From NCBI RefSeq assembly GCF_000252955.1, contig NC_014228.1, positions 3,876,701-3,940,700 on the forward strand: DNA of 64,000 nucleotides, written 5' to 3'. The translations under genes were made by a program, and so were the position numbers. Under the pieces are notes generated by a model. It searched no databases. It worked only from the letters and a program-made list of their open reading frames with translations, and had not been told where the DNA came from. Numbering within the stretch: the first letter of the stretch is position 1; each line of letters opens with the position of its first letter. Shown here one piece after another: positions 35,072 to 40,824 of this stretch. The stretch is from Xenorhabdus nematophila ATCC 19061 (GTDB lineage: Bacteria; Pseudomonadota; Gammaproteobacteria; Enterobacterales; Enterobacteriaceae).

Positions 35072-35683
35072 TTATTCCCTGATATTACGCAGCCGGATTG
35101 TCGTCTGATGTCGGTGCACAATAGACGGCGATTTCAACCAATGGGCGCTGATGGACAAGGTAATAAAAACCCTCCCTCCTTTTGTCTGCGATTTTTCAAG
35201 ATGAAAGGTATCAATCACAACTTCCTTAGGATCAAACAATCTTTCCCAGCTATTTTCCTGACAATCCCCCGCCCCTCTCTTCCATTCAAGAAGACGGTTA
35301 TTTAATCGGTAACCAAAAAATTCAGACTCAATATGTTCTGGTTTTTCCCATCGATCATTTAAATTAAGATCAAAAGCAACAATGATGCAGGAATTAACAG
35401 ATTCTGTCGGTTTATTTTTAATGACCAGCGGTGCTCCTTCACACTGTGTTCTCTCCCGACAATAACCCGCTCGCCTGATATCCTTTTCCACCAAATAAAC
35501 CGTCCTGTTTACCAGATAATGCAGCCTGTATTTCCGATAGAGATCGAGAATTTGCCCTGATAAAACCGGATACGTTTTTGTCATGGCGATAAAAATCACA
35601 CTACTGATTAGCATTGCCACCACAACTTCCAGCAAGGAAAATCCTGCCTGTTTTGGTCTAAAACAGAAAATGGTCAGCATCAT
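35072..35683 (-). CDS. ppdB: Prepilin-peptidase-dependent protein B
   Basis: A 203-residue pseudopilin with the cleavage signature QAGFSLLEVVVAMLISSVIFIAMTK (G-F cut, glutamate +5) and a C-terminal domain with two cysteines near ICRERTQCEG, typical of PilW-like minor pilins. The ATG overlaps the ppdA stop as ATGA. It is the second gene in a four-gene chain of overlapping pseudopilin genes that runs into recC. Confidence 0.88.
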   Translation of the reverse strand: MMLTIFCFRPKQAGFSLLEVVVAMLISSVIFIAMTKTYPVLSGQILDLYRKYRLHYLVNRTVYLVEKDIRRAGYCRERTQCEGAPLVIKNKPTESVNSCIIVAFDLNLNDRWEKPEHIESEFFGYRLNNRLLEWKRGAGDCQENSWERLFDPKEVVIDTFHLEKSQTKGGRVFITLSISAHWLKSPSIVHRHQTTIRLRNIRE

Positions 35684-36189
35684 GGTTTTTTTATTCCTTC
35701 ACAGTTAGGAAGCTGGCTAATCGTGTTGCTGCATGTCCTGATCCTCCCTCTCCTTGAAATGATGACGCTAATTTCTCCGGCAGAGTTTGCCAAGGTAAAA
35801 CTGGCTGGCATGGCCGTGTTCCTGACACCATAAAAATCAATGCGATCCGTTGTAGATGAGACTAAAAGCACATCATCATAAGGAGAATAAACTCGTATGC
35901 CATCACCTTCATTGCAGTCCGATATCTGAATGACAGAAGATACCAAACACCAAAACTGCCCGTTTATTAACCATAATGTACGATCCTGATTCAGATAGTT
36001 TGCCTGAATCTGTTCTCTTTCCATAAAAGACAAAACATTGTTCACTGCCGATTGTAAATGTAAGCGATGTTGATATTTGCCCCAATGATACAATCCCCAA
36101 GATAGGCTAATCGAAATAATGAGCATCGCTATCAATAGTTCCAATAATGTAAATCCATTTTTTTGGTGAATACATTCATATTCCATCAT
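35680..36189 (-). CDS. ppdA: Prepilin-peptidase-dependent protein A
   Basis: A 169-residue pseudopilin with KNGFTLLELLIAMLIISISLSWGLYHWG, a canonical prepilin peptidase site and GspH/FimT-like body (QIQANYLNQDRTLWL). First gene of the pseudopilin operon. In E. coli thyA is immediately upstream. Here a 3.8-kb AT-rich island separates the two. Confidence 0.9.
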   Translation of the reverse strand: MMEYECIHQKNGFTLLELLIAMLIISISLSWGLYHWGKYQHRLHLQSAVNNVLSFMEREQIQANYLNQDRTLWLINGQFWCLVSSVIQISDCNEGDGIRVYSPYDDVLLVSSTTDRIDFYGVRNTAMPASFTLANSAGEISVIISRRGRIRTCSNTISQLPNCEGIKKP

Positions 36190-36514
36190 TGCCTGATTTA
36201 TATATCTTTCTCAACTTTGACAAGATAAATATCGACTATTACAAACCGAATAAACAGTGCCATTATTTAATTATGCGACGAGGTTTGAATAAAAAGAAGA
36301 CATGTTATTTTAGTACATTTTAATTGCGTAATAGCTCACAAAATTAAATTCAAATTTTATAACATGAACAAAAAAGAGTAGAATAACAATCTACTCTTTA
36401 ATGGGCTTATTTAAATTAATTGATATCTTTCATTATTTAATCTAATGCTTAGTTACCACTAATTGAAGTATATTTCATTTTATTAAATGAAAAATAATTT
36501 AATTAAAGAATAAT
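36190..36514. other. AT-rich gap between the island and ppdA
   Basis: These 325 bases hold the ppdA promoter side and the 3' end of the accessory island. No gene is seen. The clear structures are the terminator at 36366-36400 and a small hairpin TTTCATTT-TATT-AAATGAAA near 36474-36493, just past the dioxygenase stop. Confidence 0.5.
36366..36400 (-). terminator. Intrinsic terminator of the accessory island
   Basis: On the minus strand AAAGAGTAGA pairs perfectly with TCTACTCTTT around a seven-base loop, and the 3' arm runs into a TTTTTTG tract. It lies about 115 bases downstream of the dioxygenase stop and closes the island before ppdA. Confidence 0.78.
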
Positions 36515-38194
36515 CTAAATAATAAAGCGTGTATTAATAACCCTAGATTCCTCAAGAATATCAGAACTTGCCTGTTTAATATCCGTTAACGCACAAGTTC
36601 GTAATAACCATCTGTCCTGACCATCATAACGCGGTATAAACTCTGAACGACCATGTACACATCGATTATTATCAATAATAAGTAAATCTCCTGCCTCAAG
36701 GGTAACCCAATATTTATGTTTATTAGCAATCTTTTTAAGTTTATCAAGGACGAATTCTGCCTCAGCATTAAGTCCTTTCATTAAATCTAAATCATAGATC
36801 ATATAAGGATCACTAGGATTGCCATAAAGAATTGAAATCAACGGACCATTACCTTTTACTCCATTAGGGCTACCATAGGAGTAATCTATTCCCGTCATAA
36901 AAAGTGGTTCAAACAATATTTGAATTTCTCTAAGAGATAAGTCTCGGAGCATCATTTTAGCGCTTGAGATAAAAGTTTTGGCGTTTTTTTCATGATCTTG
37001 ACGTAAGCAATACAGCAAAACGTAATCACACATTAATGGATGAAAAGCAATTTCCGTATGAAAATCAAGCTCTTTTTTTGAACTTTCCGATGATAATAGG
37101 AACTCTTTTTTTATATTGGGAACTAAATTTTGGAATATGTTACCATTCTTTTCTTGTGAATATCCGACAGCATAACCGAGAAATTCTGAAATCATTGCTA
37201 ACCACAATTCACCGTAAAAATTTCCTCTGTCAGGATAATGCAAAATATCTGAAGGTGTTGGCGGTAAAACACCATCAAAATTTAATCCTTTCAATAATAA
37301 TACGCCATACTCATTACCATAGTTTTTAAAGTTATATAAATTTTTTATTATCTCTTGGTTAAGATGAATTATACGTTTAAAACTTTCGGAAAGAAATCTA
37401 TTCAGATTATCATAAGGACTGGGTAGCTCATCATAATAGAATCCTTTTTTAAGTAACTTATCATTATCTATATAAATAATATGATCACCTTTAATTTGAG
37501 ACAAATCACGGGTGACATATGATTCTTCATATTTTATTACATGGTTAGAAAAAGTCACTTCTGATTGAAAGTGGAATTCTTTTTGAACGCCACCTATAGC
37601 ATCCCCAATAATTCTCTTTAAAAAATACTCATTATCACACGCAGAGAAATAGAATGAAGAATATGTATTCAATAAACCAAGATAATAGAATTTTTTATTA
37701 TTATTCTCTTTTTCCAACCCAATAACAAAATCTTCGTAGCTTATAAAAGGCTGCCATCCTGCATAATCAACAAACTGCCTCACATAATTACCATACAAAT
37801 GGAAATTTTCTCCTTTGTAAGTTACTTTCATTTCTCCATCAAGCTGATTTAGATAATCACAATTTTTATTTTTAAACTCTACATTATCAGTAACGATATC
37901 TTTGTTTATAGAGTTAATTTTATCTTGAGAGTAAATTTCCGACAAAGCAAATATAATAGATAACTTTGGTTGTTCATCTATGTCATTTTGTGAAACATCA
38001 TCAGTTGTAAGTAGAATATCAATATCACTCAGCCCATTCCCTTTTGATATATAATCATCTATATTATATACATCAAATTTATAATATCTAAAAAAATCAA
38101 TCACATTACCAAATGAATTTTTCGCAATATTATTACCACCTAATCCATTATAAAAAGAATCATCATATACTACAAGTAAATTTCTACTTTTCAT
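36515..38194 (-). CDS. Two-part protein with C-terminal Fe(II)/2-oxoglutarate dioxygenase domain
   Basis: The 559-residue protein ends in a clavaminate-synthase/arginine-oxygenase-like domain (about 260-559). Iron ligands are visible as HTE (H379, E381) and H514 in NNRCVHGRSEF, and R528 or R532 in DGQDRWLLR is placed to bind 2-oxoglutarate (14 residues after the distal histidine). Relatives such as VioC and AsnO hydroxylate or desaturate a free or carrier-bound amino acid. Residues 1 to about 250 (beginning MKSRNLLVVYDDSFYNG) are not recognised and roughly double the family length. Codon use is very AT-rich. It is the last gene of a three-gene set with an exporter and an AlaX-like editing protein. 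Substrate unknown. Confidence 0.75.
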   Translation of the reverse strand: MKSRNLLVVYDDSFYNGLGGNNIAKNSFGNVIDFFRYYKFDVYNIDDYISKGNGLSDIDILLTTDDVSQNDIDEQPKLSIIFALSEIYSQDKINSINKDIVTDNVEFKNKNCDYLNQLDGEMKVTYKGENFHLYGNYVRQFVDYAGWQPFISYEDFVIGLEKENNNKKFYYLGLLNTYSSFYFSACDNEYFLKRIIGDAIGGVQKEFHFQSEVTFSNHVIKYEESYVTRDLSQIKGDHIIYIDNDKLLKKGFYYDELPSPYDNLNRFLSESFKRIIHLNQEIIKNLYNFKNYGNEYGVLLLKGLNFDGVLPPTPSDILHYPDRGNFYGELWLAMISEFLGYAVGYSQEKNGNIFQNLVPNIKKEFLLSSESSKKELDFHTEIAFHPLMCDYVLLYCLRQDHEKNAKTFISSAKMMLRDLSLREIQILFEPLFMTGIDYSYGSPNGVKGNGPLISILYGNPSDPYMIYDLDLMKGLNAEAEFVLDKLKKIANKHKYWVTLEAGDLLIIDNNRCVHGRSEFIPRYDGQDRWLLRTCALTDIKQASSDILEESRVINTRFII

Positions 38195-38306
38195 TACCTA
38201 ACCTCATCTATTTAAAATAATAATAGAATCAATAAATTTCATATTGATACACCATAACGCTATAGATAGACTCGGACAGAAAACACATATGACGCTAATA
38301 AATAAT

Positions 38307-38948
38307 TTACATCAAAATGGCACCTACTAACATAATAAATCCAAATAAAAGCAAAAAAACATTAGTTATAGACTCAATAATAACTTGGAATTTCCCTTTT
38401 AAAAATACACGCTGAATATAAGATAGAGCATAAACAAATATAATCCACCAAAATACGCCAATGATAATATCAATCATCCCGAGTATGATAACTTGTCTAA
38501 GAGGAGGCAGTGATGGATTAATAAATTGAGGTAGTATACTGATAAAAAATATGGCTACTTTGGGGTTAAATATATTAGCCAAAAGCCCGATTAAAAAAGG
38601 ATTTCTTTTCTGCTGAGATATATCTTGTGAAACAGTCATTAACTGTTGTTGATTTTTATTGAGATAAATCTCTCTTAACCCCGAGCTTCCCAGATAAACA
38701 AGATAAAAGGCTCCAATTATCTGCAATATACTGAACGCTGTTTTCGAAGTTGCCAGAATAACCGTGGCACCTAATGATCCTAGAACAAGATGAAAAAATA
38801 ATCCTGATTGCACACCAAATGCAGTGATCATCCCTTCTCTCTTGTCCCTGAATACCCCTTTACTGATAACAGCCCAATCAGGGCCTGGAGTCAGGTAAGA
38901 GAGCAACGCCAATAGTATAAATACAGACATTAATTCAAAACTGATCAT
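38307..38948 (-). CDS. LysE/RhtB-family amino-acid exporter
   Basis: A 213-residue six-helix inner-membrane protein with the LysE-superfamily signature SYLTPGPDWAVISKG near residue 18 and the AFYLVYLGSSGLRE segment near 78. Members export basic amino acids (LysE), homoserine or threonine (RhtA/B/C), or analogues. It starts six bases after the upstream AlaX-like gene, so the two are co-translated. The dioxygenase gene follows after 112 bases. Given its partners it most likely exports the product of the dioxygenase or a toxic analogue; this is inference. Confidence 0.85.
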   Translation of the reverse strand: MISFELMSVFILLALLSYLTPGPDWAVISKGVFRDKREGMITAFGVQSGLFFHLVLGSLGATVILATSKTAFSILQIIGAFYLVYLGSSGLREIYLNKNQQQLMTVSQDISQQKRNPFLIGLLANIFNPKVAIFFISILPQFINPSLPPLRQVIILGMIDIIIGVFWWIIFVYALSYIQRVFLKGKFQVIIESITNVFLLLFGFIMLVGAILM

Positions 38949-38954
38949 ATTTTA

Positions 38955-39827
38955 TTATCTCAATGTACAATGTGTTATGATTACAATGTATTCATCACTT
39001 TCTCCCTGGCTTATTTCTACCTTAACATCCTTTATTTCTTCTATATTTTTTATATGAGTTCCACCACATGGAATCACAACAGGCTTATTCTCTACAGTAC
39101 TTTTCCACAACCGCAAATCTTCAATATTTTTTGAAGTATATTCAACCTGTATTTCACTCCCTATTGAAAGCCAGTTTTTAAGAATGAGGTTTATTTCTTC
39201 ACTGGTGCTGTCAATGTTCTCCATAAATGAAGATTTATCAAACCCTTTTTTCTTGATGGACTTACCAAACCTATATATATCTATTGATTTTAACTCAGAA
39301 ATTGATGATTTAAATATTGCTGCCTTATCCAGGTTAAAATTTCCTAAGCTATCCGTTTCATAACCTTTATTCCAATATTTATTAGCCGCCTTGTTTAAGG
39401 CTAAAGACATAAAATGTGCCATGCTATGCGCGGCACTGATTTTATGTCTGGTTTCAGCATCAACAGATAATTTAATATTTTCACCTAAGATAAATTTATC
39501 TTCCAGCCCATTTAACGACTCTAAATAGTGTGCTGGAATAAGTTTATCTTCTGCATTCAATTTATCAGGTATATTCTGGTCAATATAAATCTGCCCGTCA
39601 ATGACTGCCGCAGTATAGGTTTTGACAATATTTAATATGTGGTTATTAAATTCTATTACTCCAACATCACTTTTTTGATCTCCCCATTTATAATTTTCGG
39701 GATAAAAAGGGCTATTATCCGTAATAACAATATAACCATCATTATATTTGAATATGTCGATGACTACAGCATCCAGGCTCAATTGGCCGGTCATAAATGA
39801 TGCTTTACTTTCTGAGATATTTAACAT
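38955..39827 (-). CDS. AlaX-like trans-editing aminoacyl-tRNA hydrolase
   Basis: A 290-residue protein of the AlaX / AlaRS-editing-domain superfamily. The four zinc ligands are intact: HSMAH (H134, H138) and CGGTH (C254, H258). The N-terminal part has NSPFYPEN and a following VGVIEF, comparable to the AlaX segment TPFYPEGGGQ-DxG, but the glycine-rich part is replaced by NYKWGDQ. Free-standing AlaX proteins deacylate mischarged tRNA (for example Ser-tRNA-Ala). It is the first gene of the island, behind a promoter-like region, and six bases before the exporter. It lacks the catalytic aminoacylation core, so it is not AlaRS. tRNA and amino-acid specificity are unknown. Confidence 0.82.
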   Translation of the reverse strand: MLNISESKASFMTGQLSLDAVVIDIFKYNDGYIVITDNSPFYPENYKWGDQKSDVGVIEFNNHILNIVKTYTAAVIDGQIYIDQNIPDKLNAEDKLIPAHYLESLNGLEDKFILGENIKLSVDAETRHKISAAHSMAHFMSLALNKAANKYWNKGYETDSLGNFNLDKAAIFKSSISELKSIDIYRFGKSIKKKGFDKSSFMENIDSTSEEINLILKNWLSIGSEIQVEYTSKNIEDLRLWKSTVENKPVVIPCGGTHIKNIEEIKDVKVEISQGESDEYIVIITHCTLR

Positions 39828-39860: not shown

Positions 39861-39890
39861 TCAATCTACTGATTGATTAAAAAATGTCAA
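39861..39890 (-). promoter_or_regulatory. Promoter-like sequence with overlapping palindrome before the AlaX-like gene
   Basis: On the minus strand TTGACA (39885-39890) and TAGATT (39863-39868) are 16 bases apart. The perfect inverted repeat TCAATC-N4-GATTGA (39861-39876) covers the -10 box, a plausible repressor site. It lies about 35 bases before the ATG. Confidence 0.45.
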
Positions 39891-39960
39891 GTTCTCGCGG
39901 GATGAATTTTCAGTTTGAAATACGATTAATGAAATGAATAATTGATGCGGATAAATAAAT

Positions 39961-39991
39961 TTTCCATCCCCAAATTCGAGGATGGAAAAAA
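39961..39991 (-). terminator. Stem-loop downstream of thyA
   Basis: Nine-base arms TTTCCATCC and GGATGGAAA enclose a ten-base loop. On the thyA strand the 3' arm is followed by ATTTATTT. It separates thyA from the accessory island about 40-70 bases past the thyA stop. Confidence 0.6.
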
Positions 39992-40029: not shown

Positions 40030-40824
40030 TTAAATTGCAACTGGAGCTTTAATACCCGGATATGGATCGTAATCCACAATCTCAAAGTCTTCAAAACGGT
40101 AGTCAAACAGAGAATCCGGCTTGCGTTTAATCACCAATTTGGGTAATGCGCGCGGCTCACGGCTCAACTGAAGATGGGTCTGTTCCAAGTGATTGTTGTA
40201 AAGATGGGTGTCGCCCCCTGTCCAGACAAAATCGCCTACATCAAGATTGCACTGTTGAGCCATCATATGTACCAATAAGGCATAACTTGCAATATTGAAT
40301 GGTAAGCCTAAAAACACATCACAGGAACGTTGGTAAAGTTGGCAGGAAAGTTTGCCGTCTGCGACATAGAACTGGAAAAAAGCATGGCATGGTGCCAGCG
40401 CCATTTTATCCAATTCCCCCACATTCCATGCAGAAACAATAATCCGGCGTGAATCAGGGTCACCTTTCAACTGCTCAAGAACCTGGGTCAACTGATCGAT
40501 GTGACGACCATCCGCTGAACCCCAGGCGCGCCATTGCTTACCATAAACCGGTCCCAAATCCCCGTTTTCATCAGCCCACTCATCCCAGATGCTCACGCCA
40601 TTATCATGCAAGTACTTGATATTGGTATCACCATTCAGGAACCAAAGCAGTTCATGGATGATGGAGCGAAGATGACAACGCTTGGTTGTGACTAATGGAA
40701 AACCTTCCTGCAAATTGAAACGCATCTGATGACCAAAAATAGAGCGTGTTCCCGTTCCCGTACGGTCATCTTTTGCCGTGCCTTCTTCCAGCACTTTTTT
40801 CATTAAATCGAGATACTGTTTCAT
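40030..40824 (-). CDS. thyA: Thymidylate synthase
   Basis: The 264-residue enzyme methylates dUMP to dTMP with methylene-tetrahydrofolate, which is consumed to dihydrofolate. The catalytic cysteine is in [12 protein letters not shown], with the substrate-binding [17 protein letters not shown] and HLYNNH segments intact. Length equals that of E. coli ThyA. The ATG overlaps the lgt stop by four bases, so lgt-thyA is a coupled pair as in E. coli. It relies on the folA product encoded at the other end of this window for cofactor regeneration. Confidence 0.98.

Follow-up and report, generated by a model that had tools for sequence, protein, structure and literature searches.

In a 64,000-nt window of Xenorhabdus nematophila ATCC 19061 (NC_014228.1; the window is the whole stretch analysed, and the coordinates below are positions in it), three neighbouring minus-strand genes encode an AlaX-like protein, a LysE/RhtB-type exporter and a two-domain Fe(II)/2-oxoglutarate (2OG) dioxygenase. 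We propose, with a probability of roughly 0.6, that this cassette makes and exports an amino acid that is toxic or misincorporated, and that the AlaX-like protein provides an immunity at the level of transfer RNA (tRNA) that outlives the producer gene. One line of support is a pattern of uneven loss: among the partial cassettes of Xenorhabdus and Photorhabdus that hold some intact gene, alaX was kept in 13 of 13 (12 surely intact) and the dioxygenase gene in 0 of 13.

In the proposed mechanism, the dioxygenase would hydroxylate the beta carbon of a free L-amino acid, most likely a basic one of the lysine, ornithine or arginine type, and the LysE-type protein would export the hydroxylated product. 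An aminoacyl-tRNA synthetase would mischarge part of this product onto tRNA, from which AlaX would hydrolyse it as a form of self-immunity, and relatives that carry only alaX may be shielded from cassette-bearing neighbours in the same insect. For the cassette itself we infer the substrate, the product and its toxicity, the direction of transport, the deacylase activity and the target tRNA. The genes and domains concerned are as follows.

38955..39827, minus strand: alaX-like gene, 290 aa; putative trans-editing aminoacyl-tRNA deacylase and proposed immunity gene
38307..38948, minus strand: lysE/rhtB-type exporter gene, 213 aa; PF01810 match
36515..38194, minus strand: two-domain dioxygenase gene, 559 aa; N-terminal glutamine amidotransferase (GATase)-like domain followed by a clavaminate-synthase-like Fe(II)/2OG domain
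37538..38191, minus strand: dioxygenase N-terminal domain, about residues 2-219; class I glutamine-amidotransferase-like/ThuA-like fold, with no conserved cysteine
36566..37435 (approximate DNA span), minus strand: dioxygenase catalytic domain, about residues 254-543; five PDB alignments begin at residue 260-288

Retention of alaX in incomplete cassettes

We surveyed 30 Xenorhabdus genomes, seeking the dioxygenase genome-wide and scoring lysE at the locus. The complete cassette was present in five (G000, which is the genome of the window, G013, G015, G020 and G022), and only these five held a full-length dioxygenase, which never occurred without alaX. Two further genomes carried alaX and lysE beside a broken dioxygenase gene, interrupted in G018 by an insertion with pieces of a DDE-type transposase and disabled in G017 by stops and missing parts, while three (G002, G012 and G016) had alaX with scraps of lysE only, the scraps differing between genomes; contig ends divide alaX in G012, the one partial cassette whose alaX is not counted as surely intact. 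The remaining 20 genomes had no recognisable cassette sequence at the locus. Two details of these loci were recorded separately. In the insertion in G018 (L081, 4943-5946), DDE_3 matches one piece at 65.7 bits and a second piece is of winged-helix type; we take the insertion to be an IS630-type element. Beyond the dioxygenase, the G013 locus (L082) holds a second short piece of alaX (residues 24-42; 66 bp at 86% DNA identity), and no ppdA was found in that stretch, which together are possibly the trace of a rearrangement.

Among 12 Photorhabdus genomes (P. heterorhabditis, which is complete, stands outside this set), one had the complete cassette, one had alaX, lysE and the first 61 dioxygenase residues, and seven had alaX alone; in another, alaX was a pseudogene and neither lysE nor the dioxygenase was found next to it, and the last two lacked alaX. 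The surviving sequence ended at about positions 887, 922 (two genomes), 944, 946, 979 (two genomes) and 1793 of the unit, and since alaX itself ends at 888, it stopped just behind alaX in seven of the eight cases. In a tree built from thyA and lgt, the incomplete Xenorhabdus genomes were scattered among the complete ones, with G016 (alaX only) being sister to G020 (complete). This scatter and the differing ends point to several separate losses (events not formally counted). The orphan alaX genes are under purifying selection: the mean ratio of nonsynonymous to synonymous substitution rates (dN/dS) of AlaX without an intact dioxygenase was 0.17 in Xenorhabdus (6 pairs) and 0.14 in Photorhabdus (28 pairs), and that within complete Xenorhabdus cassettes was 0.14 (10 pairs).

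The three genes were also found together elsewhere. A scan of named genomes with two short peptide patterns from the dioxygenase alignment, which may miss diverged relatives, returned six loci, four in Xenorhabdus and two in Photorhabdus. In P. heterorhabditis and P. bodei, the same trio stands in the same order between glpD and kdgA instead of between thyA and ppdA, with identities to the window proteins of 57% (dioxygenase), 63-64% (LysE) and 55-56% (AlaX). The alaX, lysE and dioxygenase genes behave as a unit, at two different loci. An earlier note on this DNA had grouped the three families as one functional module, and they do co-occur elsewhere, namely in these glpD/kdgA cassettes and, as dioxygenase, AlaX and transporters, in an operon of the distant gammaproteobacterium G650. 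Within the family, an AlaX relative (expect value E ≤ 1e-5) was found in 2 of 295 genomes covering 154 genera at one per genus, these being Xenorhabdus and Photorhabdus.

Predicted roles of the three proteins

The dioxygenase is scored by PF02668 (TauD) at 56.3 bits (cut-off 27), and its relatives by sequence include KDO1, clavaminate synthase, AsnO and VioC, the best-scoring solved one being the L-lysine 3-hydroxylase KDO1 (PDB 6f2a, E 1.3e-41). By alignment, the iron ligands (HxE...H; H379, E381 and H514), the 2OG residues (R528 and T407) and the substrate arginine (R532) are all conserved. Lysine is held in KDO1 by S168, E180, D234, S236, D268 and R332 (PMC6224419), and the window enzyme presents S369, E381, D437, S439, D468 and R532, so that all six lysine contacts are shared, as are the iron ligands and the compared 2OG contacts; E348 supplies a glutamate at the position to which the same source assigns an alpha-amino contact. 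The full six-contact set was present in 9 of 9 members of the dioxygenase group versus 0 of 20 other clavaminate-synthase-like enzymes, of which 18 came from Xenorhabdus loci (11 of them forming one closely alike group), one from Sulfobacillus and one from Streptomyces. Because a pocket with paired aspartates is tied to basic side chains (PMC6224419), our best guess is that the substrate is a free basic L-amino acid and that the reaction is a hydroxylation at C3, the beta carbon. The suggestion in the earlier note that the enzyme acts on an amino acid is thereby strengthened, as a prediction, by a pocket whose conserved residues resemble those of a free-amino-acid hydroxylase. KDO1 differs in being a chain of 358 residues, matched from residue 77, without a counterpart of the N-terminal domain. 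We know of no AlaX partner of KDO1. Outside the N-terminal part, the structure model of the dioxygenase was too poor to use (mean predicted local distance difference test score, pLDDT, 40), and the catalytic-domain fold therefore rests on sequence matches.

The exporter is scored by PF01810 (LysE) at 106.2 bits (cut-off 25.6), and by TIGR00949 (homoserine/threonine efflux) at 128.6 bits, below the cut-off of 183.95.

The AlaX-like protein matches the solved archaeal AlaX-M 2e1b (E 1.3e-7), and the NCBIfam AlaXM model gives it 34.3 bits (cut-off 300). Its zinc ligands (HxxxH...CxxxH; H134, H138, C254 and H258) do not vary among the 12 AlaX-type proteins aligned, nor in any of the seven rows of an alignment of Xenorhabdus and Photorhabdus sequences, which bears out the earlier note in calling these ligands intact. 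No YbaK/INS-type domain (the FthB type, related to ProXp-ST1) was matched in Pfam or NCBIfam at E ≤ 1. A glutamine at AlaX position 51, considered as a marker of dioxygenase-linked AlaX, was dropped, being common in relatives without a visible link.

Classical AlaX proteins remove serine or glycine from tRNA-Ala (PMC11295145, PMC3158927), and in 2017 the bacterial AlaX proteins still awaited a biochemical test of their activity (PMC5409826). Many AlaX proteins clear serine and little or no glycine (PMC3158927), so AlaX seems to read the beta-hydroxyl group, and we infer that a beta-hydroxylated product would show AlaX the same mark as serine. Tentatively, and at well under even odds in our judgement, the AlaX site would distinguish the product from the normal amino acid by this hydroxyl, the cassette would pair an AlaX-class deacylase with a dedicated antimetabolite, and the orphan alaX would confer immunity against sibling producers, as a small-molecule analogue of a toxin-immunity system.

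Genomic setting and wider distribution

The cassette reads alaX, lysE, dioxygenase along the minus strand, with 6 bp between alaX and lysE and 112 bp between lysE and the dioxygenase gene. Windows of 500 bases had a guanine-plus-cytosine (GC) content of 26-36% within the island, and those profiled outside had 39-51%, windows at the edges excluded. The description in the earlier note of three AT-rich minus-strand genes between thyA and ppdA was thus borne out in coordinates, families and low GC, and the assignment to AlaX-like, LysE/RhtB and dioxygenase families also stood; what had been overlooked is the dioxygenase N-terminal domain of about 220 residues. The surrounding features are listed below.

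40030-40824: thyA, adjoining the alaX side
39960..39989, minus strand: terminator-like hairpin 3' of thyA (2 such hairpins in the region versus 1.3 expected)
39863..39890, minus strand: promoter-like site 5' of alaX, TTGACA-16-TAGATT (30 such sites in the region versus 24.1 expected)
36373..36399, minus strand: terminator-like hairpin 3' of the dioxygenase gene (2 in the region versus 1.3 expected)
35680-36189: ppdA, adjoining the dioxygenase side

Since these promoter-like and terminator-like sites are barely commoner than in shuffled sequence, they lend a separate transcription unit weak support. An Rfam search returned a single match, at chance level. We take thyA and ppdA to be adjacent in E. 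coli. Of the 20 Xenorhabdus genomes that lack the island, 15 have the two genes side by side, 229-422 bp apart; three of the other five have a larger thyA-ppdA gap with no island sequence, and two have no ppdA nearby. The window genome consists of two contigs totalling 4,587,917 bases, and its contig C2 (G000:C2) holds three more clavaminate-synthase-like matches near 2384613, 2064676 and 1263482, one with two internal stops.

Homologues were sampled through genome sets and plasmid records, beyond which they are under-sampled. In a class sample of 369 genomes (apparently the same draw for both counts), the dioxygenase type was found at E ≤ 1e-60 in three genomes (the window genome, G650 and G453) and the AlaX type at E ≤ 1e-10 in two (the window genome and G650). 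G650 carries them in a tight run of genes encoding a POT-type transporter, the dioxygenase, an amino-acid permease, AlaX and an EamA-type transporter; its dioxygenase is 42% identical to the window enzyme and is without the N-terminal domain. With random placement, the one outside AlaX genome would fall among the two outside dioxygenase genomes with a probability of 2/368, proximity of the genes not counted. No second genome with a dioxygenase of the G650 type was found in the family or order of G650 (the same 7 genomes).

On plasmids, the window dioxygenase matched 114 records, none of them spanning 80% of the enzyme, and the G650 dioxygenase matched 121; no AlaX gene was named near the dioxygenase at the two places inspected among these records. 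Distant AlaX genes occurred in eight plasmid records, of which seven were inspected (all but H5); no dioxygenase was listed near AlaX in two of them, and four others had little or no annotation. One AlaX relative (28% identity) lies on the Azospirillum argentinense plasmid p5 (L146, 5893-6795) within a peptide-synthetase-type biosynthetic cluster that includes an adenylation-domain protein, an acyl carrier protein, an aminotransferase, a diiron oxygenase, a peptide synthetase, a MATE transporter and an aspartyl/asparaginyl beta-hydroxylase gene (PF05118, 108 bits). This cluster is another candidate for editing as self-protection, and it gives a hint that beta-hydroxylation and AlaX may be paired more widely; it agrees with the proposed mechanism but is no proof of it. 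Dioxygenase relatives were also seen in other company: a 35%-identical one on the Sulfobacillus thermotolerans plasmid pY0017 (L144) adjoins a gene with an argininosuccinate-synthase domain and a DMT transporter gene, and one on a Streptomyces plasmid likewise lies beside an argininosuccinate-synthase-domain gene. Finally, G024, a Xenorhabdus without the cassette, has a separate 33%-identical AlaX-type gene (L086, 8519-9418) beside genes read from their translations as cmoAB-like methyltransferase genes and aspS.

Alternatives, known parallels and meaning

Several points weigh against a synthesis-and-immunity cassette. Deletions that start at the dioxygenase end would reach alaX, at the front of the cassette, after the other genes, and it may be spared by position. 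For Photorhabdus, the dioxygenase search took in stretches of 15 kb surrounding alaX, together with the two-pattern scan, so that copies elsewhere are possible, including in the two genomes without alaX. The AlaX tree conflicts in places with the thyA+lgt tree, G015 joining G017 for example, and for some genome pairs alaX is more divergent than thyA and lgt; exchange of the locus between species is thus likely alongside the losses, and parts of it may have been transferred. The protein is a divergent AlaX, scored by the Pfam tRNA_SAD family at 23.2 bits, slightly below the cut-off of 24, and its structure model (pLDDT 45) was too poor for inspection of the pocket. Basic amino acids are not among the classical substrates of AlaX, and clavaminate synthase 1 has five of the six KDO1 contacts, without the glutamate, so the pocket does not single out lysine. 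In the wider samples, G453 has the dioxygenase type with no AlaX at E ≤ 0.001 (genome 73% complete), three genomes (G024, G036 and G055) have distant AlaX genes with no dioxygenase match at E ≤ 1e-10, and AlaX was found in nine genomes besides the window genome in a phylum sample of 398, with neighbours read for G055 only. Given the two lineages involved, the counter-example of G453 and the dioxygenase-free AlaX relatives, we do not claim that AlaX and clavaminate-synthase-like enzymes travel together in general.

An unlikely alternative is that AlaX is a general fidelity factor, taking serine or glycine off tRNA-Ala, that shares an operon by chance with an unrelated amino-acid hydroxylase and an exporter. 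This would match the classical AlaX activity (PMC11295145, PMC3158927), the presence of distant AlaX relatives among housekeeping genes, beside aspS or der and without a dioxygenase, and the retention of alaX alone in many genomes. Against it, the cassette AlaX is missing from 20 of 30 Xenorhabdus genomes and present in only 2 of 295 genomes of the family; alaX accompanies lysE and the dioxygenase gene at two different loci, and the sole AlaX genome of the class sample outside the genus, G650, has the same dioxygenase type in its operon.

Equally improbable, in our view, is a harmless role for the hydroxylated amino acid, as a signal or a building block that serves a peptide, iron binding, or the nematode or insect host; its export would then be overflow and AlaX would do no more than avert misincorporation. 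Hydroxylated lysines and arginines are known building blocks of peptides. Among the peptide synthetase clusters of X. nematophila, one includes a putative clavaminate synthase gene (PMC5313471). However, no peptide synthetase gene was seen among the neighbours in either genus (judged from translations of the open reading frames at 33-44 kb of the window and at the P. heterorhabditis locus), an exporter and an editing protein are the sole partners of the dioxygenase, and a purely internal product does not explain why AlaX is retained after the dioxygenase is lost. The least probable reading makes all three genes a resistance device, in which the dioxygenase detoxifies an environmental toxic amino acid, LysE pumps it out and AlaX cleans tRNA; it needs no other biosynthetic genes and has a precedent in the standalone editing protein that guards bacteria of canavanine-producing plants against canavanine (PMC10018355), but none of the incomplete cassettes seen has an intact dioxygenase gene and the gene was never seen alone, the opposite of what a useful detoxifier would lead one to expect, and a pocket of the KDO1 type speaks for an ordinary amino acid as the substrate.

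The preferred reading, a producer cassette with tRNA-level immunity, has partial precedents. In Streptomyces cattleya and MA37, the deacylase FthB and the exporter FthC give self-protection against 4-fluorothreonine, and as in our cassette an unusual amino acid, an exporter and a tRNA deacylase that counters misincorporation are encoded together (PMC7408626). FthB is related to ProXp-ST1 and not to AlaX (PMC11295145), and is therefore an analogue and not a homologue of the cassette AlaX; the parallel drawn in the earlier note consequently survives in function and fails as homology. The fluorinated product also arises from fluorination chemistry and not from such a dioxygenase. The AMB cluster ambABCDE of Pseudomonas aeruginosa resembles the cassette in combining a LysE-type transporter with Fe(II)/2OG oxygenases that make a toxic amino acid, but it requires two peptide synthetases and a carrier-bound tripeptide, and no editing protein is among its five named genes (PMC4357302); no peptide synthetase lies beside the cassette. 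In the IDO and Hil operons of Bacillus thuringiensis, Pantoea and others, a dioxygenase likewise acts on a free amino acid, and in the IDO operon the exporter RhtA presumably removes an antimicrobial product; X. nematophila ATCC 19061 is itself given as a Hil carrier. Those dioxygenases belong to PF10014 and PF13640 and use isoleucine, and no AlaX is among the genes named in the passages at hand (PMC3684760). For the orphan AlaX, the canavanyl-tRNA(Arg) deacylase CtdA offers a model, as a standalone editing protein that protects from a toxic amino acid of foreign origin (PMC10018355), although CtdA is a B3/4-type protein and its toxic amino acid comes from plants. None of the available passages on FthB/FthC, AMB or IDO describes the combination of AlaX, LysE and dioxygenase, and no description of such a cassette was found in the passages accessible from the open-licence literature, including that on Xenorhabdus, Photorhabdus and AlaX in biosynthetic clusters.

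If the proposal is true, tRNA-level editing would be a portable immunity trait that lasts without the toxin gene in insect-dwelling bacteria. The cassette offers one bacterial AlaX protein a concrete candidate substrate together with its producer, and it indicates a way in which one enzyme could make a hydroxylated amino acid, in a group of bacteria that is studied for its antibiotics.

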